Assembly (NCBI RefSeq): GCF_014217875.1
Contig: NZ_CP059060.1
Span: 1,054,001-1,118,000, forward strand
From: Synechococcus sp. LTW-R
GTDB taxonomy: Bacteria; Cyanobacteriota; Cyanobacteriia; PCC-6307; Cyanobiaceae
Direction of reading: 5' to 3'
Length of the DNA: 64,000 nt
The notes under the pieces were generated by a model. The model was not told the origin of the DNA, did not search any database, and worked only from the letters and a program-made list of their open reading frames with translations. Made by a program: the position numbers and the translations under genes. Each line of letters opens with the position of its first letter. Positions within the stretch are counted from its first letter, which is position 1. Shown piece by piece: positions 45,813 to 59,381 of the stretch.

Positions 45813-46275
45813 TGGCCGAGGGCCGCTGGCCGGCGCAGGCCAGGCAGCCGCCATTGATGCGATAGGGCGCCAGGTGATGCCTGAGGCACCGGGTGCCGCG
45901 GAAAAACAACACCTGTCCCTGTTCCCGGGCGTGGGCATCGGTGAGGGGCAAGGCCAGCCAGCTCTCGGGAACCCGCCCCTTGAGGGACTCCCGATTCGCC
46001 AGGGCTTCACGCCGGCGCTGCCGCTCTTCCCGGTCGTTCTTTGCGCAGACCGCCTCCACCTGGAGCTCACGGGAACAGTCCGCACAGGCCTGCACCGTGG
46101 GCTTTTTGCGCTCCAGGTTGTGGGAGAGCTTGTCGCTTGGGACCTCCCGCTCTTTGCCGCAGCTGCAGCGGCACCACCAGAAGGCATTCCCAGACTTGGA
46201 GCGTTTCTCGGACGCGCGCACAACGGTGAGTTGGCCATACACCTCACCAATGCGATTGCGCGGCTTAGAGGGCAT
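45802..46275 (-). CDS. Phage-like cysteine-rich (zinc-binding) protein
   Basis: A 157-residue protein. The N-terminal part reads RIGEVYGQLTVVRASEKRS then WWCRCSCGKEREVPSDKL, followed by ACADC. This four-Cys arrangement resembles the zinc-ribbon domain in phage-encoded and HNH-associated proteins. A basic helical middle and a second CLACAG pair follow. No nuclease catalytic residues are evident. Its location between small core genes suggests fixation in the lineage rather than recent phage entry. Confidence 0.6.
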   Translation of the reverse strand: MPSKPRNRIGEVYGQLTVVRASEKRSKSGNAFWWCRCSCGKEREVPSDKLSHNLERKKPTVQACADCSRELQVEAVCAKNDREERQRRREALANRESLKGRVPESWLALPLTDAHAREQGQVLFFRGTRCLRHHLAPYRINGGCLACAGQRPSATIQ

Positions 46276-46283
46276 TCACTCCA

Positions 46284-46571
46284 ATGAACTCTGCTAAAAA
46301 CCCTACGGAGGAAGATGGCGAAAACACAGGAACAATGACGCGACGCAACAGCGCACTGATTCGACTGCTTCTCTCCTTGCTCTGGCTTCTGCTGGGGGTG
46401 TTTGCCTTCCTCAGCCTCGCCCGAGTGTTCCTGTGGGCCTTGAGCTGGTATTTCATTCGTGCAGCCCTCGCCATTGGCTTGGCGTACTTCGTGATTGATC
46501 GCGTACGGCGCCTGCGTCAAATCCAGCACCTGCGGGCCATGACCTTTCGGGCCTGGCTCGACGAGGACTGA
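46284..46571 (+). CDS. Small membrane protein
   Basis: A 95-residue protein with two adjacent hydrophobic helices (LIRLLLSLLWLLLGVFAFLS and the ALSWYFIRAALAIGLAYFV region). A basic C-terminal segment (RVRRLRQIQHLRAM) follows. ATG at 46284 or ATG at 46335 may be the start. It diverges from the zinc-finger gene and lies 14 nt before arfB. Confidence 0.6.
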   Translation: MNSAKNPTEEDGENTGTMTRRNSALIRLLLSLLWLLLGVFAFLSLARVFLWALSWYFIRAALAIGLAYFVIDRVRRLRQIQHLRAMTFRAWLDED

Positions 46572-46585
46572 TCACGTCCTTCGCC

Positions 46586-47026
46586 ATGGCGCCAAACCTT
46601 GACCTCGTTGTTCATCCGAGACTGGTGATTCCAGCGGCGGATTTGCAGTGGTCATTCAGTCGCAGTGCAGGACCAGGTGGTCAAAACGTCAACAAGTTGG
46701 AAACGGCTGTCGAGCTCAGTTTGGACATCGCAGCCTGCACGGTTCTTGGTCCCTTTCAGAAACAACGGCTGCAATCGCGCCTCACACAATTGAGGGGCTC
46801 AAGCGTGCTTCGGATCCGTGCATCCGAGCACCGTTCGCAATACAAAAACCGCTGCCTAGCCCTTGAGAAAATGGCTGAGGCGCTGCGGGACGGCCTCGAA
46901 CCAGACCCCAAGCCCCGGCGCGCCACGAAGCCCTCGAAAGCCTCCACCCGGAAACGCCTAGAGGGGAAAAAGTTCCGCGGCGATGTCAAACGCAACCGGC
47001 AACAACGACCGCGGCTGGAGGACTGA
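46586..47026 (+). CDS. arfB: ArfB-type peptidyl-tRNA hydrolase (ribosome rescue)
   Basis: A 146-residue release-factor-like protein. The catalytic GGQ motif lies in SAGPGGQNVNKLETAVEL near residue 33. The C-terminal tail is long, Lys/Arg-rich (KPSKASTRKRLEGKKFRGDVKRNRQ) as needed to enter the mRNA channel of stalled ribosomes. There is no codon-recognition domain. It releases peptides from stalled ribosomes. It converges on the Nif11 gene with 3 nt between. Confidence 0.92.
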   Translation: MAPNLDLVVHPRLVIPAADLQWSFSRSAGPGGQNVNKLETAVELSLDIAACTVLGPFQKQRLQSRLTQLRGSSVLRIRASEHRSQYKNRCLALEKMAEALRDGLEPDPKPRRATKPSKASTRKRLEGKKFRGDVKRNRQQRPRLED

Positions 47027-47029
47027 GCG

Positions 47030-47278
47030 CTAGACGTAGCGCCCGGGATATTCACCAGGGTGATCAATCCGTGTCACCGTCACACCGGACGCGGTGCGCC
47101 CCGAAAAGCGCAGAATCTCACTTCTGGACACTTCAAAGCCGAGCTCCTGGGCCAAGCGGGCGACGTCGTCGGCCGTGATGGCCTCTTCCACGGCTTGCCG
47201 CAGGGCGGGCTCAGCCTGAACCCGCGCCAAAAACTGCTGCAGCTGCTCAAAGGCCAAAGGATTTGCCTTCAAATGCAA
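47030..47278 (-). CDS. Nif11-domain small protein (second copy)
   Basis: An 82-residue protein. The N-terminal 55 residues match Nif11 (NPLAFEQLQQFLARVQAEP and the ARLAQELGFEVSRSE helix). A tail of about 27 residues (FSGRTASGVTVTRIDHPGEYPG) follows, lacking Cys and a GG cleavage motif. It is unlike Nif11 lanthipeptide leaders in that respect. It marks the left edge of the AT-rich accessory region. Confidence 0.72.
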   Translation of the reverse strand: MHLKANPLAFEQLQQFLARVQAEPALRQAVEEAITADDVARLAQELGFEVSRSEILRFSGRTASGVTVTRIDHPGEYPGRYV

Positions 47279-47298
47279 GCATACTATTGCTCACGAGT

Positions 47299-49446
47299 TC
47301 AATCGCCGCATACAACCGAAGGATCCGGACTATTTCTATAGCCAGACCACATAACGGAAGACAGACGCCTCTGATCGAGATCTACGACTCTGCAAAAAGA
47401 TCCGACCTTTCCCCTGCCAGGCATGGGAGTATCAACTATATACAATTTAGAACCACGCTTATAGACATTAGACGGGCGGTAGCCGTCAATATCAACGAGC
47501 TCTGGACCTCCATCGCGCCCAGCGGCGACAGGCCAGAATACCGGGAACCTCTCCGGCGAATCAAAACCCACGAAGAGCTCATTTTTATTACCACGCATCA
47601 ATATTATGCCATTTTTTCGATAAACAGCTTTAGGATATCGTAACATCCGAGGCGAAACAATGCGAACATCAAAGGCAAGCGGATTGGCCAGACTTGTCAC
47701 GCGAACGTCACATGGCACATAGACATCTTCGCCAGTCTTGTTGCGCACGTTGTCAGATTTGGATTGAAAAAGAGCCCAGCCAAGAGCCTTTACACCATCA
47801 TCACCTTCAAACTCGTACGGATAACCATCTTGAACAATAAAACCCGAGTATCCATTTACAGTTTTTACCCCCGAAAACTGCTGCGCATGCATTCCCAATA
47901 AATGCCTTTCGACAACATGAAGAGGCCTACCCACTGAGTCATAAAGCGCTGAAACAAAGAAATGACTACACTTCTTATTCCTCAACTCTACAGAAATCGA
48001 GCTAAGAGCCTTATACCAAGACGAATAGTCAAAACCCCCAAATCCTGAACGCTCCGAGAAGCATAGAGCAGCAATAACTGACACTCCCCCAACCAGATTC
48101 CGCAGACCACTGTTAAAGGCAAAACGAATACGAGACAAAGAGAGAACCAAAAAAGGAGCGGTGAAATAAATCACCACTGGAAGCACCCGACTTGGGACTC
48201 TGAGGGCTTTCGCCCCAGGTATCAAATGCACGACAAAGGAATAGAGGGTGGGTAGATTAGCGACCTGAACAACACCCAGCCAACAAAGAATAGCCAATAA
48301 GAACCACTTAAAGAAAACCTTCCTAGAGCCATCGGAGCCAAAAAACATCTCAAAAGAAGATGATGATCTAGAAAGAGAAATAGACCAAACAGCAACGCCA
48401 ATAGAAGCAATGAATAGAGCGATAAATAAGTAGCCCGGGAAAAGACTTTGCTCCCAACCATCAACTACAGGACGCTCTCCCCAAAAGAAATGCCAGTCGA
48501 TTGGCGACGGCACCATCATTGTATCTACACCATTAATCAGCGAAAGAGGCTTAGGCATTTGAGAAGGGTCCAGATGTCCACGATCTCCAAAATCAGAGAT
48601 CGTCCTGAGATAAGGGATATGGAAGCAGCCTGCCGCGACAAGAAGGCCCATCAATAGCAATACGAGATTCCTTGTTTTTTTCAGATGATTTAAGCTAGCC
48701 ACCAAAAAGCGAGGCCAGCTATTTTTCACCCAACATGCTAGAGGCGAGACATGGGTTCGCCCGAGGAAGTTTCCAGAAAATACTGCAAGTACCAACTCAA
48801 CCATCAATGCCAAGACCAATACATAGGCTGTAAACACATACACGTAAATACCAATAAATAACTGCAAAGTCAAGAAGATCAAGGCCAGAACAACGGCCTT
48901 ACTCCATTCCCCGGCCTCACCCGCAAAAAAGGATGCAACACTAAGAATTAAAGGACCAACGAAAAATAGGGGTAATAGCTGAATATGGCTTAGTCCGTCG
49001 TTTATGGCGACTGGCGAAAAAACACAGGAACACGTAACAACGGTCAGGAGAAAAGGATTAGAAGATGACGACAAGCGGCATAGAGACCATCTTAAAGAAA
49101 GATAGTTAAAAACAAGTACAATGAGCAACAAAAGTGAAAAAGCATGCGCATTACCAAGCGCCAACCTCAATACAGAATAAATCATGCCAGGAATCAACAA
49201 ATGATCCGAATATGCAAAAACATTTCGATAAGGCCAGAAGAAGTCAGGAGAGAAGTATTCTCTAAAAAGAGAGCCATAAGATTTAAAGTTATTTTCCAAG
49301 AAATACATATTTAGAAGCCCGTCTCCGCCGGTCACGGTACGAGCTCCAAGAGACAAGAGTGCGTCATCCATCACAAGGATGGACAATAGAATTGGCAGAA
49401 AAATCCAGTGAAATAGATTGCTCGCAGAGAAAGCTGTGCGACTCAA
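47299..49446 (-). CDS. Large GT-C-like polytopic membrane protein
   Basis: A 715-residue protein with about ten to twelve transmembrane helices in the first 490 residues and a soluble C-terminal domain of about 220. The first extracytoplasmic loop has GGDGLLNMYFLENNFKSYGS, like the acidic loop of GT-C glycosyltransferases. This suggests transfer of sugars from a lipid carrier to an envelope glycan or protein, but it is inferred from topology. The gene is AT-rich compared with the flanks and prefers different codons, which points to transfer. The only canonical start is TTG at 49446; the open frame continues upstream about 30 codons without ATG or GTG. Confidence 0.65.
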   Translation of the reverse strand: MSRTAFSASNLFHWIFLPILLSILVMDDALLSLGARTVTGGDGLLNMYFLENNFKSYGSLFREYFSPDFFWPYRNVFAYSDHLLIPGMIYSVLRLALGNAHAFSLLLLIVLVFNYLSLRWSLCRLSSSSNPFLLTVVTCSCVFSPVAINDGLSHIQLLPLFFVGPLILSVASFFAGEAGEWSKAVVLALIFLTLQLFIGIYVYVFTAYVLVLALMVELVLAVFSGNFLGRTHVSPLACWVKNSWPRFLVASLNHLKKTRNLVLLLMGLLVAAGCFHIPYLRTISDFGDRGHLDPSQMPKPLSLINGVDTMMVPSPIDWHFFWGERPVVDGWEQSLFPGYLFIALFIASIGVAVWSISLSRSSSSFEMFFGSDGSRKVFFKWFLLAILCWLGVVQVANLPTLYSFVVHLIPGAKALRVPSRVLPVVIYFTAPFLVLSLSRIRFAFNSGLRNLVGGVSVIAALCFSERSGFGGFDYSSWYKALSSISVELRNKKCSHFFVSALYDSVGRPLHVVERHLLGMHAQQFSGVKTVNGYSGFIVQDGYPYEFEGDDGVKALGWALFQSKSDNVRNKTGEDVYVPCDVRVTSLANPLAFDVRIVSPRMLRYPKAVYRKNGIILMRGNKNELFVGFDSPERFPVFWPVAAGRDGGPELVDIDGYRPSNVYKRGSKLYIVDTPMPGRGKVGSFCRVVDLDQRRLSSVMWSGYRNSPDPSVVCGD

Positions 49447-49650
49447 GGGAAAGAATGAGATCTTGAGACCACGATACAGGTAGAGGAAGAGATATTCTTT
49501 GACTTAAGGTGGCTTTTCCAAATAGTTATATAGAAAGTTCAGCGTCATTTGTGATTTTCCAACCAAGCCAATGTCGCTACAAGCACAGCCGACCGTGGTC
49601 TGGGGTGCAGCGGAGTCCAGTGATTCCGGGCAGGCTGACGGGGTCAGCAG

Positions 49651-49824
49651 ATGCCCTCTCGGCCTGAATGGAAGCCACCTATCCCCGTGGTCGTCACTCC
49701 AGACCTCGAGCCCCTGCCGGCTCGATCCCTTTGGCAGGAATGGCCGGAGCGCACCTTCTGCATTCCCGCTCGAACCATCCAGAACGATGGGCTGAGCTGG
49801 GAGGAACTCCTCGGCCAGCGCTGA
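49651..49824 (+). CDS. Small hypothetical protein (57 aa)
   Basis: A short frame from ATG 49651 beginning MPSRPEWKPPIPVVVTPDLE, with a Trp- and Pro-rich middle, a single Cys and the end DGLSWEELLGQR. It lies 37 nt before the next small gene on the same strand in a GC-rich patch within the AT-rich region. GC content and codon use match the core genome. Function unknown. Confidence 0.5.
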   Translation: MPSRPEWKPPIPVVVTPDLEPLPARSLWQEWPERTFCIPARTIQNDGLSWEELLGQR

Positions 49825-49861
49825 ACAGCCCAAACTGGTGCCACCGTCCGATCGCCCCTCC

Positions 49862-50113
49862 ATGCCAGGCCCCGCCGTGAGCGCACAAGAGAAAAGCGAG
49901 TGGGCGAACTTTGTGATCCAGGAAGTCGTGAGCTTCCTGGGGGCAAGCAAAGAGGAGATCTACGCCAATTACGCCGCCCAGAGCGAAGGCAAACTCAGCC
50001 GCGAAACCATCGAGGAAGCCGGCCTCATGGATTTCGAGATCGCCCTGACGTATCTGAACGAGCGCAGCTCCGGACTGGGCCGGGGCTTCCTTGGAATGAA
50101 CCTGATTCGCTAG
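49862..50113 (+). CDS. Conserved-looking small protein
   Basis: An 83-residue soluble, helical protein from ATG 49862. Its core is WANFVIQEVVSFLGASKEEI and a C-terminal LNERSSGLGRGFLGMNLI. It sits in the same GC-rich patch as the 57-residue gene upstream. No motif is recognised. A GTG at 49877 (VSAQEKSEW) is an alternative start. Confidence 0.6.
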   Translation: MPGPAVSAQEKSEWANFVIQEVVSFLGASKEEIYANYAAQSEGKLSRETIEEAGLMDFEIALTYLNERSSGLGRGFLGMNLIR

Positions 50114-50798
50114 CGACTCGAATAGACACTGACGAATATCTTGACAACCATTAACGCGTGGGAATGGATCTCAGCCTAAAATCATAAGCAGACATTCCAC
50201 AGGCCGTACAGGCGGCATACGAGCAGGCAAGAATGTCGTCCAACACAGCTGAACACCTCTCACATAACATCTGGACTTGCACAGCCTATCAGCGGACCCA
50301 AGTATTAAAAAGGTACAAAATGCTTTTGCTTATTCAAGCCTCTGAAGAGACGAAAAGAGTTCACAAGACAGAGTACGCAATAGAGAAAGCAGGTGGGATG
50401 ACGTCGACCTGACAGAAAGCAGTAAAAACGTAGCCAACCAGAGAGGAGGCAAAGAATTTGCACAGCCCCCTAAAGCATTACAAACATCTTTTTTTGATAG
50501 TCGCGAAGCCCAAACAAAGAAAAAACCAAGCGACAGCAAAACCACTCCCCAAGAAAACTAAAAAGAGCCAAGACAATGAGGCTGGGGGGAACGATCGCAA
50601 AGCATGAATAAAGCAAGAAACAAATCGACGACATCTGGCACACAACGCCGAAGACCCAAACCAAGAGACGTTCACAATTCGTCACACCAAGTTAAAACAT
50701 GCAGGCAAAGGGTCAGCTGCAGAAAAAGCAAGTAAACACCTGAAAACCAGCGGCAAGGGGAAATGCAGTAGGATAAGCAATAAGAGTCCAACACCCAA
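50114..50798 (+). other. AT-rich gene-poor gap
   Basis: About 690 nt between two small genes and the FkbM gene. The plus strand is purine-rich, with several runs of A. Overlapping minus-strand frames of about 70 codons encode hydrophobic, Ser/Phe-rich sequence expected from such composition, so none is called. I see no tRNA, terminator or repeat. Confidence 0.5.
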
Positions 50799-52607
50799 AT
50801 GAACACCCAGGAGCACATCATTGTTGAATGCCCTCCTTATGGGGCATTCAAGGTGGCGGCGACTTCTGAGTTCATTCGCTGGAGAGCCACATCATTTCAC
50901 ACAAAAGAACCCACTACAATTCAGTGGCTACAGACTCTAGAAAAAGATTCAATCTTAATAGATGTAGGCGCTAACATCGGAATTTATACCGTCCCAGCCG
51001 CTCTCTTTCATGTCAAGAAAGTAATAGCAGTCGAGCCAGAAATTAAAAGCTACAATGAGCTAATCAAGAATATCGAAATCAATGGTATCGACGAGGTTGT
51101 AGAAGCCTTGCCTCTAGCCATATCGACAGAATTTGAAAATTGCATTTCAAACCTATACCTTACAAGCGACGAGCCGGGCTCGAGCTGCCACCAGGTTGGT
51201 CGCAATCAAAATTACTTACTTAACCCTTCAGATCAAGAAAGGAAAAGAAGATCTATTTATTGTATTTCACTATCATCTATTGTGCAGAAAGTTCGTGATG
51301 AGCATCCCAAGTCTCCAATTCATATCAAGGTTGACGTAGATGGGATCGAAGAAGATGTTTGCCAGTCACTTTTCGATTCAAGGACCTTGAACTATGTCAA
51401 CACGCTGCAGGTTGAACTAAACCCAGCAATACCTCAACATGGGTCTCTTATCAAGAGGTTGCAAGATCATGGATTCAGCTATTCGAAATTACAAGTTACA
51501 ACGGCATGCAGGAAAAGCGGCAGCTTTGAAGGGTTTGCCGAGTATGTATTTCGTCGATACATTACTCGTGGGCTTGCATCGAACCTGCCGGAAAGCGTAA
51601 GAAGCCGGTACTATTTTGTTAATGATGAGAATGATTTGTCCGATATTTCAGGATGCATACTTGGATCTGGCCTAAATCATACTTCAGTCAACAATCCCTT
51701 TTCAAGTACTCATAATCCGGCTCTAATATCAACAAGCCCTCCGGCGCTTGTGCTGCCCAGACTTATTCACAGCAGCGATTGCCTTAAAATATTCACTTCG
51801 CTTGGACAATGCATTGAAGACTCGAAAGATTTCGGATTTGAGTCTAATTCAGGTTTCAATAAAGATGAAAATCGACGTGCGATATCAACCGAGAAGTTGC
51901 TCCATGTTGATAGACCATATGTGAATCAACTGGCTCAGCAGTTCTCAAATATTGAGATACCCAGGTCAATCCTAAAGAAAAGCATGCCTTTATTGAAGTC
52001 ATATTTAGGCATTGAAGAGAAAGAACCCTTTATACCTGGTTTAAAATTGACTGTAAGGCTAAGGCATTTTCTTGATCTTCAAGGGTTTTATCTCTGCGGT
52101 CATCATGATTCACCTGATACTTTACTTGCACTGATTTGCCCTTTAACTCCATCCTCCACCACTACTTCTTTCTTTAATACAGCTCCTGAGACGGCTGCTC
52201 GATTTAAATCACCTAAGTCATCACGCTTTGAATCTCAATTCAGAGCGGGACATTTTTATGAAGAACTACCAAGCGATGACGGTATCTACAGAGTAGTAAA
52301 TGCAAATGGAGAAACCTTGTACTGTAGTCATGTGCACAGCGCACGTCTGCAACATGGTGACACTTTAGTTATTCCTAATTTACGATCAAAAGCCTTCTCT
52401 AAACCAGACGCGAATAATCTTGATTCCCTTAACCGGTTTGCTCACGGGGTCTTCCCTCCGATCCCAGACCTGTTGAGGCCAGTACTGTTGGCGGACTATA
52501 TAGTTTCCAAGCAGAAGGATAAGGACACCTACTCTACTCTATTCGAAACCCGATCAGATAGCTCTTTCCACATACATTTATGCCCATTAAGTGATTTACT
52601 GAAGTAA
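50799..52607 (+). CDS. FkbM-family methyltransferase with unassigned C-terminal half
   Basis: A 602-residue protein, AT-rich relative to the flanks. Residues about 20-250 are a class I SAM methyltransferase of the FkbM type: IDVGANIGIYTVPAALF (SAM binding, near 52), AVEPEIKSYNELIKNIEINGI, and IKVDVDGIEEDV near 175. Such enzymes O-methylate sugars in surface glycans. Residues about 390-580 form a second region with GHHDSPD followed more than 100 residues later by RFAHGVFP. An HxD...H pattern like that of 2-oxoglutarate/Fe oxygenases is possible but unproved. The combination with a GT-C-like gene nearby suggests envelope-glycan synthesis. Confidence 0.75.
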   Translation: MNTQEHIIVECPPYGAFKVAATSEFIRWRATSFHTKEPTTIQWLQTLEKDSILIDVGANIGIYTVPAALFHVKKVIAVEPEIKSYNELIKNIEINGIDEVVEALPLAISTEFENCISNLYLTSDEPGSSCHQVGRNQNYLLNPSDQERKRRSIYCISLSSIVQKVRDEHPKSPIHIKVDVDGIEEDVCQSLFDSRTLNYVNTLQVELNPAIPQHGSLIKRLQDHGFSYSKLQVTTACRKSGSFEGFAEYVFRRYITRGLASNLPESVRSRYYFVNDENDLSDISGCILGSGLNHTSVNNPFSSTHNPALISTSPPALVLPRLIHSSDCLKIFTSLGQCIEDSKDFGFESNSGFNKDENRRAISTEKLLHVDRPYVNQLAQQFSNIEIPRSILKKSMPLLKSYLGIEEKEPFIPGLKLTVRLRHFLDLQGFYLCGHHDSPDTLLALICPLTPSSTTTSFFNTAPETAARFKSPKSSRFESQFRAGHFYEELPSDDGIYRVVNANGETLYCSHVHSARLQHGDTLVIPNLRSKAFSKPDANNLDSLNRFAHGVFPPIPDLLRPVLLADYIVSKQKDKDTYSTLFETRSDSSFHIHLCPLSDLLK

Positions 52608-53390
52608 CACATAAAGAATGAGTGAGCGCCAATAACCATAACCTTTGCGGCATTTTACGCTAGATTCTGCAATAAATCAAGAGTCCCTAAAAATACCGGC
52701 CTCTTTATTCTGCCGATTGGAGGCTGTTCAGTTGGCATTGTATATTGTTTGTTTCACGAAGTGAATTGCCAATCTCCAACCAATCTGGCGCGAGCAATTA
52801 ACAAGCCAAGACAATCCTTCCAGTGAGACAAGGAAGGCTTGATAAAGATTTTACCAAGCATATTTATCTGATGATTATGAACGGCGGCTCCTGCTAAACA
52901 TCTATTCCAGTAGCAAACCGGTTAAATCTGAGTGGAGGGCAATAAACGGTTGAGAAGCCCTCCAATGGCTTTGACAAACGCTGGAAGACGTTCTGGTGAA
53001 TTACCGGAATGAAGTAACAACAAAGCTTAGATAGAAGGTACTTACTCGCATCTTTTTCTTGTGCTGTCACGATGACTAGGCACGGTCTAGGACATTTTTA
53101 ATGCATGGGAGTTCGAGCAAGACTCCATTCAATCCAAACTCACTAGCGCTCTTAAGGAATGCCTGAACAGGATTGTCTAAACAAGGCAGGAGCCGATTCC
53201 ACTCATCGCACCAAAGTGCTGCATCGAACGATGCTTACGAGACACATCGTGTCAGGCTTTGGGCAAATTGGTAGAGGAAGTCGGTGTGAGAGCCTTCCCG
53301 ACTACGCACGACCTGGCAACCCGCACCAGACACTATAAACCTGAACATTACGTTGCGGGAAATGGCAAACAAGCAACCCAGTCGATAGCC
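52608..53390 (+). other. Gene-poor gap before the first ychF-end repeat
   Basis: About 780 nt with no frame I would call. Composition is intermediate. It is followed at 53391 by the first of the repeats that carry the ychF terminus. No tRNA or terminator was recognised. Confidence 0.5.
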
Positions 53391-53500
53391 AAACCTCTTG
53401 GCATGGCTGGATGATTACACATTAAAGAGGAACTCAATACCTTCCAGTCATAGCAACGGATCTCTGCCGAGAAGCAGCCGTGGACTGTTAGTAGACTTAT
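53391..53500 (+). repeat. Direct repeat R1, displaced ychF 3' end (putative attachment site)
   Basis: The plus strand at 53421-53438 carries a diverged copy of the last codons of ychF; read on the minus strand it encodes I-E-F-L-F-N-V-stop. Flanks on both sides align without gaps to R2 (53391 to 55251) over about 90 nt, with about 14 mismatches by eye. A GTAGACTT motif lies just to the right. Confidence 0.8.
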
Positions 53501-53607
53501 TTGGCGCCTGAGTCGGCTTGCCCGCTGCCTTGTCTACTGTCAAAGTAATACGTATGAACTGCTTGCTTGGTGCTCTAGATAGAGTTGAACGGAAGCAAGA
53601 CAGGTTG

Positions 53608-53919
53608 ATGCGTCATTTTCTACCGCTGCTTATTGGCGTGATTGTGACGCCACTTAGCGCCGCAGCACACAACGAGATGGTGGTGGCGCACGCAGTTGAT
53701 GAAGGCGACACGACCCTTCCCGTGAGTCGTGGAAGGGTTGACACCGGTTCTACAGAGCAGATTTACCTGATGCTCAAGGACGGTGGTTCCTTCTCCGTAC
53801 CCATCCCAATGACAAACCGGTTCACGTGTGAACTGGAGGGTAAGAAGTGGGTAGAGACGCCCATCAAGGGCGTAGACGGGCGCTGGAAGGCATTCTGGTG
53901 TGTCGCTGGGATGAAGTGA
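53608..53919 (+). CDS. Small secreted protein
   Basis: From ATG 53608 the product has 103 residues with a signal peptide (MRHFLPLLIGVIVTPLSAAA, cleavage before HN). The mature part is about 83 residues with two Cys (FTCELEG and AFWCVAG) that could form a disulfide. It lies in the R1-R2 interval downstream of R1. The frame upstream of 53608 is open to 53518 but non-conserved-looking. Function unknown. Confidence 0.6.
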   Translation: MRHFLPLLIGVIVTPLSAAAHNEMVVAHAVDEGDTTLPVSRGRVDTGSTEQIYLMLKDGGSFSVPIPMTNRFTCELEGKKWVETPIKGVDGRWKAFWCVAGMK

Positions 53920-53955
53920 AGCGGATCTGTTGGAATAACACGTTTTAGGTAGCAA

Positions 53956-53980
53956 TAAAAAAACCGCCCTTTCGGGCGGC
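53956..53980 (-). terminator. Terminator of the outer-membrane protein gene
   Basis: On the minus strand a 6-bp GC stem (CCGCCC with GGGCGG, loop GAAA) is followed by a run of about seven T. It lies 37 nt after the stop of the minus-strand beta-barrel gene and between the convergent gene ends. Confidence 0.85.
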
Positions 53981-54016
53981 CCTGATTGGTTTGGCGTGAA
54001 GAAATCGGAGATCAGA

Positions 54017-54760
54017 TCACTTGCCGAAGCGATAACGGAAGCCACCACGAACGCCGAAGTTATTCAGTGAACCAATCCCGATGTTGTTGATGGTCACAGA
54101 GCTGTTTCCGGTGTACAGGACTTCAGCAAACAAGTCAGCCTGTGCAGCCGCTTCGTAGGAGACACCCAACTTGGCCTGGTAACCAAATGCACCTGCGCTG
54201 CCGCCCTGGGTCTGCAGGTCGCCAATCGTTCCGGTGTAGCCGAGAGCTGTGCCAGTTGCCGAGAAGGTCTGGTCGGGAATGGAAACATTGGTGTAACCAA
54301 TGCCACCACCCACGTAAGGAGTGAACTTAGTCTTGGTTTGGATGTCGTAGTAGCCAGACACCAGAACACTATTGGTGCTGAGCGTGCCAGAGGTACTCAG
54401 GCTTCCGACGCCTGTGTAGGAGGTGCCATCGATTGTGACGGTACCGCTGCCCGTGGAGGAACCAATCGCGTAGCGGCCAAGCTCATAAGTCAACTCAGCA
54501 CGCAGGCTGTTGCCGAAGTCGTAGCCAACACCGGCTACTAGGCCAACACCACCACCTAAACCAGTGGTGACATTGAAGTCCTCGGACCAATTAATTCCAG
54601 AAATAGTTCCGCTGTCTTTATAGGTAACAGCAGGATCGCCCGCCCATGTGCCACCAACACCGACAGTTACGTATGCGCCTGAAGTGTTGTCGCTCGTTGC
54701 TTCTTGAGCGCAGACAGGTGCCGCAAAAGCGACGGCGGAAGCTGCAGCTGCAGAAAACAG
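54017..54760 (-). CDS. OmpA-like outer-membrane beta-barrel protein, 5' end disturbed
   Basis: The frame encodes about 247 residues. A signal sequence (LFSAAAASAVAFAAPVCA) precedes a beta-barrel rich in Gly, Thr and aromatic residues, ending in the typical outer-membrane C-terminus GGFRYRFGK. No ATG, GTG or TTG lies in frame before the signal sequence. CTG at 54760 or ATA at 54775 would have to serve. An ATG at 54801 in another frame encodes MKLLFS and then stops, resembling the start of the signal peptide. This suggests a frameshift or partial duplication at the 5' end, so the gene may be a pseudogene or use a rare start. Confidence 0.65.
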   Translation of the reverse strand: MFSAAAASAVAFAAPVCAQEATSDNTSGAYVTVGVGGTWAGDPAVTYKDSGTISGINWSEDFNVTTGLGGGVGLVAGVGYDFGNSLRAELTYELGRYAIGSSTGSGTVTIDGTSYTGVGSLSTSGTLSTNSVLVSGYYDIQTKTKFTPYVGGGIGYTNVSIPDQTFSATGTALGYTGTIGDLQTQGGSAGAFGYQAKLGVSYEAAAQADLFAEVLYTGNSSVTINNIGIGSLNNFGVRGGFRYRFGK

Positions 54761-54801
54761 AAGACGAAGCTTTATTTCCTCACGCTGAATAGCAGTTTCA
54801 T

Positions 54802-55250
54802 TTCACCAGCCAGTCAGTCCCACCCCCTAGACAGCCTAGGCCACTACCCATACCGGCCCAATTCGTGCTTTCGGCATAGCCATAGCCGGATTGATTTCGA
54901 CTTAGCTGTAGCCGGAGCGCTTAATCTCGCAATTTTTTTGCAGAGTCCCTGTGCCACAGACGATCTGAAGCGTCTAGTGATAATTATTCTTGGCTCGCGA
55001 GGGCGACCTGGACCCGGCATGTCGCCCAGTCATGTAGCCAGTGATACAACTGTCAGCGTCTGCTCGATGGTGGTAGCGAATGCCGTTCCCACGCCTTATG
55101 TGAAGTCCGCTGGAAACATCTAGAGGCTTTGCACGCTGAACCAACTCACCAAGTGGATGAAGTGCCTACCTAAGACCACCACATGGACTGACGCGCGGCG
55201 TAAAGATTCAGAGCCTTTGAACGGTAGACAAAACTTTTGAGTAGACCGTC
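54802..55250 (+). other. Gap between beta-barrel gene and repeat R2
   Basis: About 450 nt with no convincing gene. A plus-strand frame to 55123 overlaps the opposite gene and has no motif. Just before R2 two GTAGAC-type motifs flank AAAACTTTT. It probably contains the promoter of the leftward beta-barrel gene. Confidence 0.45.
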
Positions 55251-55402
55251 AAACCCCTTGGCATGACTGGATGCTTACACGTTGAAGAGGAACTCCATAC
55301 CTTTTAGTCATAGCAATGGGTCTCAGCCGAAAAGCGGCAGTAGACTTTTCAAGCCGTCAAACCAGTAGATAAAGCATCTTGTCTACCCAGATTCAGCTCA
55401 CA
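55251..55402 (+). repeat. Direct repeat R2, displaced ychF 3' end plus flank
   Basis: The segment 55281-55298 encodes, on the minus strand, M-E-F-L-F-N-V-stop, identical in amino acids to the ychF end but with silent changes (AAC for AAT, GTG for GTA, TAA for TAG). The right-hand flank (CATACCTTTTAGTCATAGCA and on) is shared with R1 and R3. It precedes the leader of the first barrel gene. Confidence 0.85.
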
Positions 55403-55612
55403 CTCACCACTGCCTGGACTTCCGCAGGGCTGCACTAATCCAGAGCACAGGGGACGCCGCCAATGCTCCAGTTCATTGGAATCGGTGACGCCGCAGGAAT
55501 CGTCTAGGGAGTCTCGTCTGCCTTCATCCTGATGCCACCCAGTCAACTGCTCTAAGCCCAGTTGCAATTGGGCTTGTAGCGGCGAACCTCGCTGCAATTG
55601 TGCTTGTGAGTG
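55403..55612 (+). promoter_or_regulatory. Conserved leader of barrel gene A
   Basis: Together with the right part of R2, about 280 nt before the gene A start are closely similar to the leader of gene B, with few indels. A hairpin-forming GTAGATAAAG...CTTGTCTAC lies at its left end, and a short direct repeat (TGCAATTGGGCTTGT/TGCAATTGTGCTTGT) just before the start codon. Promoter elements were not mapped. Confidence 0.6.
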
Positions 55613-56647
55613 ATGCAGCAGTCCCTTCGGCTATCGCTGGCGGCACTGGGCACAGCAGCTCTCTCGCTCGCTTCACTGCCTGCGGTCAGCGCCAAACCTG
55701 CTCAAGTGGCTCAAGGGTCAGCCAGTGACCTGGGCGTGATGAGCATCAGCCTCAAGGACGTCGTCAAGCCTCGGGTTGGTGTTCAGGCTCAAACCCAAGC
55801 CGCTGGCACACCCAACCAAGCAGGTTTGGGTGGCTTCCTTCCCTTGGTGGTCGGCAGCAACAGCGTCTTCTTTGCTGATCTGCTGGCGAATGCCAACTTC
55901 GCTGACATCAATAACTCCAGCAGCATCATCAACACCACCGTTGCTGGCACCACCATTTCCACCTCATCACGCCTGGGCTATCGCTGGCTGAACGGTGACC
56001 GCAGTTGGATGTATGGAGTGAATGCGGGTTATGACACCCGACCGATGAGCACAGGTCCTGCGGACACAGGCATCACTGTTTATGCCTCACGCACCGCTTT
56101 CTTCCAGCAGGCTGCCGTCAATGCAGAAGCGGTAAGCGACCAGTGGGCATTCAATGCTTATGCGCTTATTCCAACGGGTGACACCGAGCAGGTCCTCAAC
56201 ACCGTCTATCAAGGCGGCGCACTGGACACCTACGGCTTGGATGCGGGTTACAACCTGACGCCAGCCCTAAGAGCCTCTGTTGGGTACTACTACCAAAACG
56301 GTGACTGCGGCAATGCCGATGGCTCTGGCGTCTTGGGTCGCCTCGATTATGCCATCAACAACGGACTAACGGTTGGCACCAACCTCTCGTATGACAGTAC
56401 CTTCAAGTCACGCTTCTCAGCTGACATCAAGTGGCGCTTCAATACAAACGGCGGTCCTGGCAAAGAAACACGGAAAACCAATACCGCCGTTACAGCCCTA
56501 ACATCAACGCCAAGCAATAGGGATGTGCGGGTGCACGATTCTGGACCCCTCCCGGGCTGCGTCCAGCCTGACACTTGTAGTGTATACGTATGCATCCCCG
56601 GGTCGCCGCCTGTATGCTCTTGGTACTGCCTGGATTGCGGAGCTTGA
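55613..56647 (+). CDS. Secreted beta-barrel, inverse-autotransporter-like, with Cys-rich tail (gene A)
   Basis: A 344-residue protein with a signal peptide (RLSLAALGTAALSLASLPAV, cleavage near AKPA). Residues about 45-285 form a beta-barrel with alternating segments such as SSRLGYRWLNGDRSWMYGVN and GYDTRP. These resemble inverse-autotransporter barrels (intimin/invasin type), where the passenger follows the barrel and is displayed outside. After a shared linker ending NRDVRVHD the last 35 residues are a tail with six Cys ending C-L-D-C-G-A. The gene is about 90% similar to gene B except for this tail. A terminator follows. Assignment is by pattern only. Confidence 0.75.
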   Translation: MQQSLRLSLAALGTAALSLASLPAVSAKPAQVAQGSASDLGVMSISLKDVVKPRVGVQAQTQAAGTPNQAGLGGFLPLVVGSNSVFFADLLANANFADINNSSSIINTTVAGTTISTSSRLGYRWLNGDRSWMYGVNAGYDTRPMSTGPADTGITVYASRTAFFQQAAVNAEAVSDQWAFNAYALIPTGDTEQVLNTVYQGGALDTYGLDAGYNLTPALRASVGYYYQNGDCGNADGSGVLGRLDYAINNGLTVGTNLSYDSTFKSRFSADIKWRFNTNGGPGKETRKTNTAVTALTSTPSNRDVRVHDSGPLPGCVQPDTCSVYVCIPGSPPVCSWYCLDCGA

Positions 56648-56666
56648 TTGAACCCTAAAAGTCCCC

Positions 56667-56698
56667 AAAGCTCCTGCAAAAGCAGGGGCTTTTTATTT
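56667..56698 (+). terminator. Rho-independent terminator of barrel gene A
   Basis: A 10-bp stem (AAGCTCCTGC with GCAGGGGCTT, one G-U pair, loop AAAA) is followed by TTTTATTTCTT. It lies 20 nt after the gene A stop. Confidence 0.88.
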
Positions 56699-56829
56699 CT
56701 TCAGTCACACCAATAAGCCAATAAACCAGCCTCCAATACCTGGAACCATTGCCATCAACGCAACCTGACGACAGCCTCGTCAAGGCACGGAATAGAAGTC
56801 GCCCCAGGACAAACGTCGGCTGCGGCACG

Positions 56830-56965
56830 TTTTCTATACATTGAAGAGGAACTCCATACCTTCCAGTCATAGCAATAGATCTCAGCCGAAAAGCGGCAGT
56901 AGACTTTTAGTAGACTTTTCAAGCCGTCGAACCAGTAGACAAAGCATCTTGTCTACCCAGATTCA
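56830..56965 (+). repeat. Direct repeat R3, exact copy of the ychF 3' end plus flank
   Basis: Bases 56830-56857 are identical over 28 nt to 58286-58313, the last codons and stop of ychF plus four bases beyond. To the right it continues with the flank shared by R1 and R2. Here an 11-bp AGTAGACTTTT element is present twice in tandem, once in R2. A hairpin GTAGACAA...TTGTCTAC follows. Confidence 0.9.
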
Positions 56966-57184
56966 GCTCACACTCACCACTGCCTGGACTTCCGCTGGGC
57001 GGCACTAATCCAGAGCACAGGGGAAGCCGCCAATGCTCCATTCATTGGAATCGGGGAAGAAGCAGGAATCGTCTAGGGAGTCTCGTCTGCCTTCATCCTG
57101 GTGCCGTCCAGTCAACTGCTCTAATCACAGTGGCAATGGGGCTTGTTCTGGCAAAACTACTGCCAGCAGTTGAGCGTGTCTGTG
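56966..57184 (+). promoter_or_regulatory. Conserved leader of barrel gene B
   Basis: Closely similar to the leader of gene A, including the blocks around CTAGGGAGTCTCGTCTGCC and CAGTCAACTGCTCTAA. The similarity weakens in the last 60 nt before the start. Long, conserved and apparently untranslated, so it may carry promoter and regulatory signals. Confidence 0.6.
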
Positions 57185-58192
57185 ATGCGGCAGTCCCTTC
57201 GTTTATCGCTGGCAGCACTCGGCACAGCAGCTCTCTCCATCGCCTCGCTGCCTGGAGTTAGCGCCAAGCCTGCTCAGGCGGCTCAAGGCACGGCTAGTGA
57301 CCTTGGCGTGATGAGCATTCAGCTCAAGGACATCGTCAAACCGCAAGTCGGCATCCAGGCTCAAACCCAAGCCGCTGGCACCCCCAACCAAGCAGGTCTG
57401 GGCGGCTTCCTTCCCCTGTTGGTCGGCAGCAACAGCGTCTTCTTTGCTGATGTCCTGGCAAATGCCAACTTCTCAGACTGGGGTAACAGCAGCAGCATCA
57501 TCAACACCACCGTTGCTGGCACCACCATCTCCACCTCATCGCGCCTGGGCTATCGCTGGCTGAATGGCGACCGCAGTTGGATGTATGGACTGAATGCGGG
57601 CTATGACACCCGACCGATGAGCACGGGTCCTGCAGACACAGGCATCCCTGTCTATGCCTCACGCACCGCCTTCTTCCAGCAGGCTGCCGTCAATGCAGAA
57701 GCGGTGAGCGATAAGTGGGCATTCAATGCTTATGCGCTCATTCCCACTGGCACCACCAACGCCCAACTCAACACCGTCTATCAAGGCGGCTCGCTTGACA
57801 CCTATGGCTTGGATGCTGGCTACAACCTCACGAAAGCCTTGAGAGCATCTATTGGTTACTACTACCAAAACGGTGACAGCTGCGATGCCGATGGCTCTGG
57901 CGTCTTGGGTCGCCTCGCTTATGCCATCAATAACGGACTAACGGTTGGCACCAACCTCTCTTATGACAGTGCCTTCAAGTCACGCTTCTCCGCTGATATC
58001 AAGTGGCGCTTCAATACCAATGCAGGTCCTGGCAAAGAAACAACGAAAACCAATACTGCCGTTACCGCTCTAACATCAAAAACAAATAATAGGGATGTGC
58101 GGGTGCATGATCAGACGCTGCGTGAGTGGTGCAAAAATAATCCTCGATGGTCCAATATGCCTGTATGTACTGGGTGCCTTAATTGCTACTAA
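57185..58192 (+). CDS. Secreted beta-barrel, inverse-autotransporter-like, with Cys-rich tail (gene B)
   Basis: A 335-residue paralogue of gene A in the adjacent tandem unit. Signal peptide (RLSLAALGTAALSIASLPGV) and barrel correspond residue by residue with few changes. After the shared linker ending NRDVRVHD the tail is 26 residues with four Cys and no similarity to that of gene A, apart from the final C-L-N-C. ATG at 57185 aligns with the gene A start; a longer frame from 57143 is not shared. The stop lies about 100 nt before the end of convergent ychF, and no clear terminator is seen. Confidence 0.75.
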   Translation: MRQSLRLSLAALGTAALSIASLPGVSAKPAQAAQGTASDLGVMSIQLKDIVKPQVGIQAQTQAAGTPNQAGLGGFLPLLVGSNSVFFADVLANANFSDWGNSSSIINTTVAGTTISTSSRLGYRWLNGDRSWMYGLNAGYDTRPMSTGPADTGIPVYASRTAFFQQAAVNAEAVSDKWAFNAYALIPTGTTNAQLNTVYQGGSLDTYGLDAGYNLTKALRASIGYYYQNGDSCDADGSGVLGRLAYAINNGLTVGTNLSYDSAFKSRFSADIKWRFNTNAGPGKETTKTNTAVTALTSKTNNRDVRVHDQTLREWCKNNPRWSNMPVCTGCLNCY

Positions 58193-58285
58193 GCTTGATC
58201 ATTCAAGCCGTTCTTGCCGAGAACTGAGCTCTCAACAGCTCGTAACCAAGGTCAAAGCCCATGCAACCGCATCAGACGCAGACAA

Positions 58286-58313
58286 TTTTCTATACATTGA
58301 AGAGGAACTCCAT
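58286..58313 (+). repeat. Repeat R4, the native ychF 3' end
   Basis: The reference copy of the repeat core. On the minus strand it is the final M-E-F-L-F-N-V-stop of ychF plus four bases. It is identical to 56830-56857. Left and right flanks differ from R3 right outside these 28 nt, as expected for a crossover point. Confidence 0.9.
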
Positions 58314-59381
58314 CACATCACCCTCTTCAACAACGTACTCCTTACCTTCAGCGCGCAGCCATCCTTTGTTGCGCGCTTCTGCCAGGGAACCGGCTTCAAG
58401 CAGCTGCTTGTAGCCAATGGTTTGCGCGCGAATGAAGCCGCGTTCGAAGTCCGTGTGGATCACACCGGCGGCCTGGGGAGCGGTCATGCCGGCCTTGATC
58501 GTCCAAGCCCGGGTTTCCTTCTCACCGGTCGTGAAATAGGTGCGCAAGCCCAGCAGGCTGTAGGTGGCACGAATCAGGCTTTGCAGGCCACCTTCTTCAA
58601 CGCCTAATCCCTCCAGGAATTCCGCGCGATCCTCTTCCGGCAGCTCGATCAGTTCGGCCTCCACCTGCGCAGAAATCCGCACAGTTCCAGCGCCCTCTTT
58701 CTCGGCGAGCACGGCCACTTCCTCGCAGTAGGCATTGCCGCTGGAGAGGTCGTCTTCGCTGACATTGGTGGCGTAGATGATCGGCTTTGCCGTCAGCAAA
58801 CCCAAGGGTTTGATCATCGCGGCCTCTTCTTCCGTGAGGCTGATGCTGCGGGCGGCACCACCCTGCTCGAGCACCGCCTGGATGCGCTCAAGGGCCTCGT
58901 CTTCCACCTGGGCTTCCTTACTGGTGCGCACCTGCTTCTTCAGACGCTCCCGGCGCTTCTCCACCTGGGAGAGATCCGCCAGACCGAGCTCCAGGTTGAT
59001 CACCTCGGCATCGCGGGCCGGACCGACGGAGCCACTGACGTGGATGACGTCGTCGTTCTCAAAGCAACGCACGACGTGGACGATGGCGTCCACCTCACGA
59101 ATATTCGCCAGGAACTTGTTCCCCAGACCTTCCCCTTGGCTGGCGCCCTTCACCAGGCCGGCGATATCGACAAACTCCACCCGCGTAGGAATCAGCTCCT
59201 TGCTGCTGCTCAGATCCGAGAGCTGCTGCAGCCTGGGATCCGGAACCGCGACCACACCGGAGTTCGGCTCAATGGTGCAGAAGGGGTAGTTGGCAGCTTC
59301 AGCCTGGGCGTTGGCCACCAAGGCGTTGAAGAGAGTCGACTTGCCCACATTGGGCAGCCCCACGATTCCGGCTTTAAGCAT
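58290..59381 (-). CDS. ychF: Redox-regulated ATPase/GTPase YchF
   Basis: A 363-residue Obg-related P-loop ATPase that binds ribosomes. G1 is GIVGLPNVGKSTLFNAL near residue 5, the switch region NYPFCTIEPNSG lies near 35, and G3 is DIAGLVKGASQGEGLGNKFL near 70. A coiled-coil insert and a C-terminal TGS domain (TYFTTGEKETRAWTIKAG onward) are present. The extreme 3' end is the core of the repeats at 53.4, 55.3 and 56.8 kb. It diverges from the adaptor gene with 115 nt between. Confidence 0.97.
   Translation of the reverse strand: MLKAGIVGLPNVGKSTLFNALVANAQAEAANYPFCTIEPNSGVVAVPDPRLQQLSDLSSSKELIPTRVEFVDIAGLVKGASQGEGLGNKFLANIREVDAIVHVVRCFENDDVIHVSGSVGPARDAEVINLELGLADLSQVEKRRERLKKQVRTSKEAQVEDEALERIQAVLEQGGAARSISLTEEEAAMIKPLGLLTAKPIIYATNVSEDDLSSGNAYCEEVAVLAEKEGAGTVRISAQVEAELIELPEEDRAEFLEGLGVEEGGLQSLIRATYSLLGLRTYFTTGEKETRAWTIKAGMTAPQAAGVIHTDFERGFIRAQTIGYKQLLEAGSLAEARNKGWLRAEGKEYVVEEGDVMEFLFNV

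Follow-up and report, generated by a model that had tools for sequence, protein, structure and literature searches.

A picocyanobacterial gene predicted to join an FkbM methyltransferase to an unnamed Fe(II)/2-oxoglutarate oxygenase-like domain

A gene of Synechococcus sp. LTW-R appears to encode a two-domain enzyme, in which a predicted oxygenase and a predicted methyltransferase would tailor the same sugar of a surface glycan. We hold this explanation as a whole to be reasonably probable. The gene lies at 50799..52607 on the forward strand of the window, which is the whole 64,000-nucleotide stretch that was analyzed (contig NZ_CP059060.1, positions 1,054,001 to 1,118,000). It has an ATG start and 602 codons plus a stop, and the 602-residue reading frame of the original prediction is thus real. 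The host genome is a single contig of 2.4 Mb. The argument draws on the reading frame, the FkbM family, the oxygenase fold, the conserved ligands, and the recurrence of the fusion, all of which come from sequence and structure prediction. Catalysis, a glycan substrate, and the order of the steps are what we infer from them.

In the proposed mechanism, the N-terminal half would serve as an FkbM-type, SAM-dependent O-methyltransferase. The C-terminal half would oxidize a C-H bond of its substrate, most likely to a hydroxyl, taking in O2 and giving off succinate and CO2. The substrate would most likely be a cell-surface glycan sugar, or the nucleotide or lipid precursor of that sugar. The fusion would most likely serve to have one sugar tailored by both halves, and the new hydroxyl may be the one that is capped with methyl.

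The N-terminal half is an FkbM methyltransferase, as had been recognized from the sequence. Residues 55 to 228 (50961..51482, forward strand) match PF05050 with an E value of 7.9e-10 (39.5 bits; cut-off, 22.7), and residues 53 to 207 match TIGR01444 with an E value of 2.8e-18 (66.8 bits; cut-off, 37.7). Alignment places two intact motifs in this half, both on the forward strand: IDVGANIGIY (aa 54 to 63; 50958..50987), which we take to be SAM-binding motif I, and the FkbM motif HIKVDVDGIEEDV (aa 175 to 187; 51321..51359). The latter is retained in five of the six fused copies that have a complete N-terminal half in the alignment. The window protein therefore shares with the FkbM family both the SAM motif DxGANxG and the KxDVDG motif, which we regard as the marks of that family. 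FkbM enzymes are best known as O-methyltransferases of sugars and polyketides, and this half would be predicted to transfer an O-methyl group to a sugar or a similar acceptor. In a full-length structure model, residues 30 to 260 or so are similar to SAM methyltransferases, KsgA, COMT, and TrmK among them (Z of 14.3 to 12.6 among the best 50 listed). Several FkbM relatives have frames of only about 260 to 305 aa, too short for such a second domain, whereas the window protein continues into a second enzyme domain. The two domains are joined by a variable linker (aa 261 to 305; 51579..51713, forward strand), which is 5 to 20% identical to those of the six fused relatives aligned.

The second domain spans residues 306 to 602 (51714..52604, forward strand) as delimited by alignment, and it is Fe(II)/2-oxoglutarate (2OG) oxygenase-like and belongs to an unnamed family. 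It had been described as an unfamiliar domain of 350 residues; the unfamiliarity holds, and the length was a slight overestimate, the domain having 297 residues after the linker. Residues 306 to 602 had no match in Pfam, NCBIfam, or PHROG. A profile search of PDB sequences returned one chance match (E 1.4). No Pfam oxygenase family, PF13640 for example, matches the window domain, and there is no oxygenase among the six Pfam families that are matched by any of the 11 members found.

These 11 copies, the window copy included, come from 6 of 151 family genomes, and all 11 are full copies of the domain. In their alignment (numbered here by the full window protein), the mean column identity is 38% and 17 columns are invariant. 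The GHHDSPD motif that had been pointed out reads H435-H436-D437, so the HxD pair is H435 and D437 (52101..52109). The distant histidine mentioned with it corresponds to H549 (52443..52445), the predicted third iron ligand. R560 (52476..52478), 11 residues farther downstream and the first residue of a predicted strand, is the predicted binder of the 2OG carboxylate. None of these four residues, encoded on the forward strand like the rest of the gene, varies in any of the 11 copies, so that at the sequence level the HxD...H triad and the 2OG-type arginine are in the expected order and conserved. We considered a chance motif, and this invariance excludes it. R420, R422, D426, G520, and N527 are also invariant.

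The predicted fold agrees with the sequence. We ran AlphaFold2 on the C-terminal half alone, using the window domain and six relatives (7 sequences), and obtained a model with a pLDDT of 64.7 and a pTM of 0.70. The model matches the double-stranded beta helix of Fe(II)/2OG oxygenases with moderate confidence. The fold comparison that had been proposed as a check thus came out in favor of an oxygenase-like half. Foldseek found 170 PDB chains at E<=1e-3, with low TM-scores of 0.32 to 0.42 by query length. The best 50 of the 170 include OkaE, FtmOx1, SnoN, HygX, AndA, PrhA, and prolyl 4-hydroxylases, and judging by title or known function we take these 50 to be 2OG-dependent enzymes. A VIA comparison was run on Foldseek's best 1,000. 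The best match was PolD (Z 11.8; 175 residues aligned; rmsd, 3.4 Å), followed by Tpa1 (11.2), an algal P4H (11.1), and PasI (10.8), and rank 50 still had a Z of 9.8. For comparison, models without a clear match typically have a best Z of 7 to 8 and a rank 50 of 4 to 5. Judged in the same way, the VIA best 50 are presumably 2OG oxygenases, except for the uncharacterized 3bvc. PolD, Tpa1, the algal P4H, and PasI, as prolyl-hydroxylase-type 2OG oxygenases, share with the window domain the predicted fold and the order HxD...H...R, at about 9 to 12% identity in structural alignments. The top BFVD match of the model was a cyanophage 2OG oxygenase (E 1.8e-6).

The model places HxD after strand E110-121 and before strand E136-143, with R560 at the start of strand E255-266. 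This is the placement expected of these residues in a 2OG oxygenase fold. The model has a pLDDT below 50 at 72 of its 297 residues, including 127 to 131 (with H435) and 248 to 252 (just after H549), and residues 159 to 191 form a low-confidence stretch. The full-length model has a pLDDT of 61.5 and a pTM of 0.55; residues 434 to 437 form a short helix there, and residues 536 to 551, with H549, are below 50. Its VIA matches as listed are of the methyltransferase type only. One domain can fill such a list, and the full-length VIA comparison is therefore no test of the C-terminal half. Because the full-length run was weak at the ligands and gave methyltransferase matches only, the fold assignment rests on the domain-alone model and the conserved residues. 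From this predicted fold and the invariant ligands, we assign the C-terminal half to the Fe(II)/2OG oxygenases with high confidence. H435, D437, and H549 are predicted to hold the iron, and R560 to hold 2-oxoglutarate. The domain might instead keep the oxygenase fold without activity, as a structural or regulatory remnant. The C-terminal half does diverge rapidly, and the reading of it as active is based on sequence and model. However, every one of the 11 copies has the four catalytic residues, even one whose methyltransferase motif has decayed (L021), and we consider a remnant very improbable.

The fusion is found at several loci. Among the 11 copies, 6 have a complete in-frame FkbM half (window, G019, G028, G038, G043:C3, and G079:C5), and 4 consist of the oxygenase half standing alone (in G038, G043:C25, G079:C12, and G079:C17). 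The remaining copy, G079:C27, has the end of an FkbM half, which is cut off by the contig edge. A larger family search matched 8 of 400 genomes, among which G000 is the only member of genus g1, and added two loci. One of these (G020:C23) is a fused gene cut by the contig end. The other (G084:C5) is a 287-aa relative with 96 positions matched (E 7.8e-10), in which HAD, YHGV, and R are kept by eye. With G020:C23 counted, the fusion in one frame occurs at eight loci in seven genomes, and two of the eight run off a contig end. The presence of the same fused frame in other genomes excludes a sequencing or frame artifact. The scans used an alignment of 6 of the 11 copies (A2), and the structure predictions used alignments of 7 copies, those that could be read from the window and the named loci (A3 and A4). 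Five of the relative loci belong to Prochlorococcus sp. AG-363 and AG-409, which are plates of single-cell genomes according to PMC6122165.

A phage origin of the domain was considered and rejected, since a tblastn search of 50,697 phage records with the window domain gave no match and the viral contigs searched held no confirmed relative, although the model fold resembles cyanophage 2OG oxygenases. A single-protein scan of genome contigs gave 56 pattern stretches, none of them confirmed. A match to G539 in the phylum search (E 8.9e-4; 49 positions) lies in a 46-codon frame with stops and was taken as chance.

The window protein aligns nearly over its full length with the fused genes of G038, G043, G019, and G028 (34.9 to 38.2% identity over 586 to 613 columns). 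The two halves have changed at different rates. The methyltransferase halves of these four are 49 to 52% identical to that of the window (36% for G079:C5), and the oxygenase halves of all five are 25 to 27% identical to that of the window. In G079:C5 (L021 942-2744, reverse strand) the FkbM motif has decayed to HIKIGVGQIQYDL, and all oxygenase ligands are kept. Therefore, at least one lineage has kept its oxygenase residues after the loss of the methyltransferase motif. In G020:C23 (L048 1414-2592, forward strand) the FkbM motif has also decayed, as judged by eye; there is no PF05050 match, and the contig ends before the ligand region. The loss of the motif in two fused copies suggests that both halves are not always needed. 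Trees of the C-terminal half neither support nor reject a single origin of the fusion (p-AU 0.405), and this half diverges too much for the window copy to be placed in them.

These observations bear on whether the two halves share a target. Both could be enzymes that act on different molecules or positions, with the fusion merely co-locating them at an assembly site. The oxygenase half does stand alone in 4 of the 11 copies, and the reading frames of fused copies have stayed open after loss of the FkbM motif. The difference in identity between the halves, seen between the window and the four fused relatives, looks as if the oxygenase substrate changes and the methyl acceptor does not. However, two dissimilar FkbM-oxygenase pairs share one domain order, a sign of a coupled task, and we think that separate targets are rather unlikely. 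That both halves act on one molecule is a tentative proposal, with a chance that we put slightly short of even.

The second of these pairs came from a search with the FkbM half, which matched 26 of the 151 genomes. Two of them carry a further fusion: a 526-residue frame in G037 (L049 700-2277) and a 530-residue frame in G077 (L050 688-2277), both on the reverse strand. The domain order is that of the window protein, and the FkbM halves are 39 and 37% identical to the window half. The C-terminal half reads HTD...SFHGV...R and, as cut for alignment, is about 70 aa shorter (227 residues versus 297). Its matches to PF13640 are below the cut-off (E 3.6e-4 for G037 and 1.7e-4 for G077). By profile, it is weakly related to the C-terminal half of the window protein. 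A profile of five rows (A6: L049, L050, L062, L063, and L065, with L064 and L029 left out) was compared with that of the window family (A1). This gave an hhalign score of 37.0 and a probability of 44%, whereas 200 column shuffles scored 25.2 or less; the link between A1 and A6 is confined to the beginning of the domain, up to and including HxD. When L064 and L029 were added (A5), the score was 53.7, which we did not count, because L029 itself had been found with A1. Three weak matches with frames of about 1,290 aa (L066 to L068) were left unused. With this second and unlike fusion, FkbM plus a 2OG oxygenase is a recurring pair.

We then turned to the substrate, for which the surroundings of seven fused loci were examined (window, G019, G028, G038, G043:C3, G079:C5, and G079:C27), along with 2.6 kb of G020. 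A clear sugar cluster surrounds one of the seven, G043:C3. There, a hexapeptide acetyltransferase gene begins 59 bases after the fused gene on the same strand. It is followed, also on that strand, by genes for a nucleotide-sugar dehydrogenase, a Gfo/Idh oxidoreductase, an LhgO-like oxidase, an epimerase, a DegT aminotransferase, and an Asn-synthase-like amidotransferase. We infer that these genes may make an amino sugar for a surface polysaccharide. More same-strand genes lie upstream, the nearest of which encodes another hexapeptide acetyltransferase, and the fused gene therefore need not open the operon. Within a nucleotide-sugar cluster (L018 375-10882, reverse strand), the L-2-hydroxyglutarate-oxidase-like gene scores just under the NCBIfam cut-off. 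In WbpA/WbpB chemistry, a 2OG-coupled sugar dehydrogenase produces 2-hydroxyglutarate, and the L018 gene might recycle 2-hydroxyglutarate from such an enzyme.

In G038, the fused and stand-alone copies are 1.4 kb apart, separated by genes for a family 2 glycosyltransferase and an unknown protein of 145 aa, and ABC-2 exporter genes lie nearby. The stand-alone copy of G079:C17 is flanked by homologues of this glycosyltransferase (48%) and of this unknown (31%) and has a Methyltransf_24 gene near it. The unknown belongs to a family of 145 to 156 aa (L014 8972-9409, reverse strand; L013 6889-7359, forward strand) that twice adjoins the oxygenase family together with a GT2-like gene. A TylF-type methyltransferase gene lies 117 bases from the fused gene of G079:C5 on the opposite strand, and a Methyltransf_31 gene adjoins that of G028 on the same strand. 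The fused gene of G019 is among housekeeping genes, with ksgA (recognized by eye) following it. Beside the stand-alone copy of G043:C25 is a 289-aa frame (L015 6664-7533, reverse strand) that is weakly KdoO-like, below the cut-off.

Because one fused gene sits within a nucleotide-sugar cluster and glycosyltransferase or methyltransferase genes lie close to others, glycan tailoring is the likeliest role, and we judge a glycan or sugar substrate to be moderately likely. The oxygenase might instead act on a protein, peptide, lipid, or small metabolite. The top VIA matches include prolyl hydroxylases, Tpa1, and the small-molecule enzymes PolD and PasI, and the top Foldseek matches are natural-product enzymes. 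However, likeness of fold at 6 to 15% identity (VIA, among the matches listed) tells little about substrate, and both the FkbM partner and the sugar-gene neighbors in G043 and G038 argue for a glycan. A non-glycan substrate is therefore not the reading that we expect, and we regard it as fairly unlikely.

The window copy itself has no recognizable glycan cluster around it in its low-GC island. The GC content of the fused gene is 42%, versus 63% for the window. In 2-kb windows, the island (46000 to 59000) has a GC fraction of about 0.42 to 0.57, versus 0.60 to 0.69 outside, and it is bordered by an RF-1-domain gene (46586-47026) and ychF (58290-59381). Given the low GC of both the gene and its surroundings, the fused gene was probably acquired as part of the island. 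Its neighbors encode barrel-like proteins and a membrane protein of 715 aa. The latter (47299-49446, reverse strand) has about nine hydrophobic segments, no Pfam or NCBIfam match, and relatives in 4 other genomes of the 151; a GT-C-type glycosyltransferase would be a guess. Two tandem frames on the forward strand (55610-56647 and 57143-58192) encode proteins of about 345 aa that are 82.5% identical, have no Pfam match, and look secreted and barrel-like by eye. A short frame (54017-54493, reverse strand) has partial matches to surface-antigen and OmpW-type barrel profiles and may encode a truncated outer membrane protein.

There is a precedent for the proposed role, because a lipopolysaccharide sugar is the substrate of the Kdo hydroxylase KdoO, which is a 2OG oxygenase. 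The window domain did not match the KdoO models PF11004 and NF053719. We found no fusion of FkbM with a 2OG oxygenase in the literature searched, a scope mostly outside subscription papers. In passages of four papers (PMC12085832, PMC4602308, PMC5769502, and PMC2684587), FkbM and 2OG (or phytanoyl-CoA) oxygenases are encoded by separate genes. What is new is the unnamed oxygenase branch and a fused order unmatched in the literature searched. The surprise is limited, because both halves belong to well-known classes of enzyme.

The chemistry could also run the other way, with the oxygenase oxidatively stripping the methyl (or a related alkyl) put on by the other half. 2OG oxygenases are capable of demethylation. 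However, no result here points in that direction, and an eraser in the writer's own chain would have no obvious need, so that we give an opposed pair almost no credence. Under the preferred reading of joint tailoring, the new hydroxyl may be the methylated one, which we consider doubtful. More speculative still, and improbable in our estimate, is a general scheme in which picocyanobacteria have on more than one occasion combined FkbM with 2OG oxygenases of different kinds into "hydroxylate-then-cap" enzymes. These would first hydroxylate an unactivated carbon of a sugar and then O-methylate the new hydroxyl, leaving a methoxy group where ordinary pathways leave CH or CH2, and the fast-changing oxygenase half would vary the cell surface, for example against phages.

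The analysis adds an oxygenase family missed by the sequence libraries searched and a fused order with a testable chemical logic. In ocean cyanobacteria, surface chemistry affects phage attachment and grazing. If the coupled reading is true, the fused protein would give these abundant organisms a one-protein route to methoxy groups on their surface sugars.
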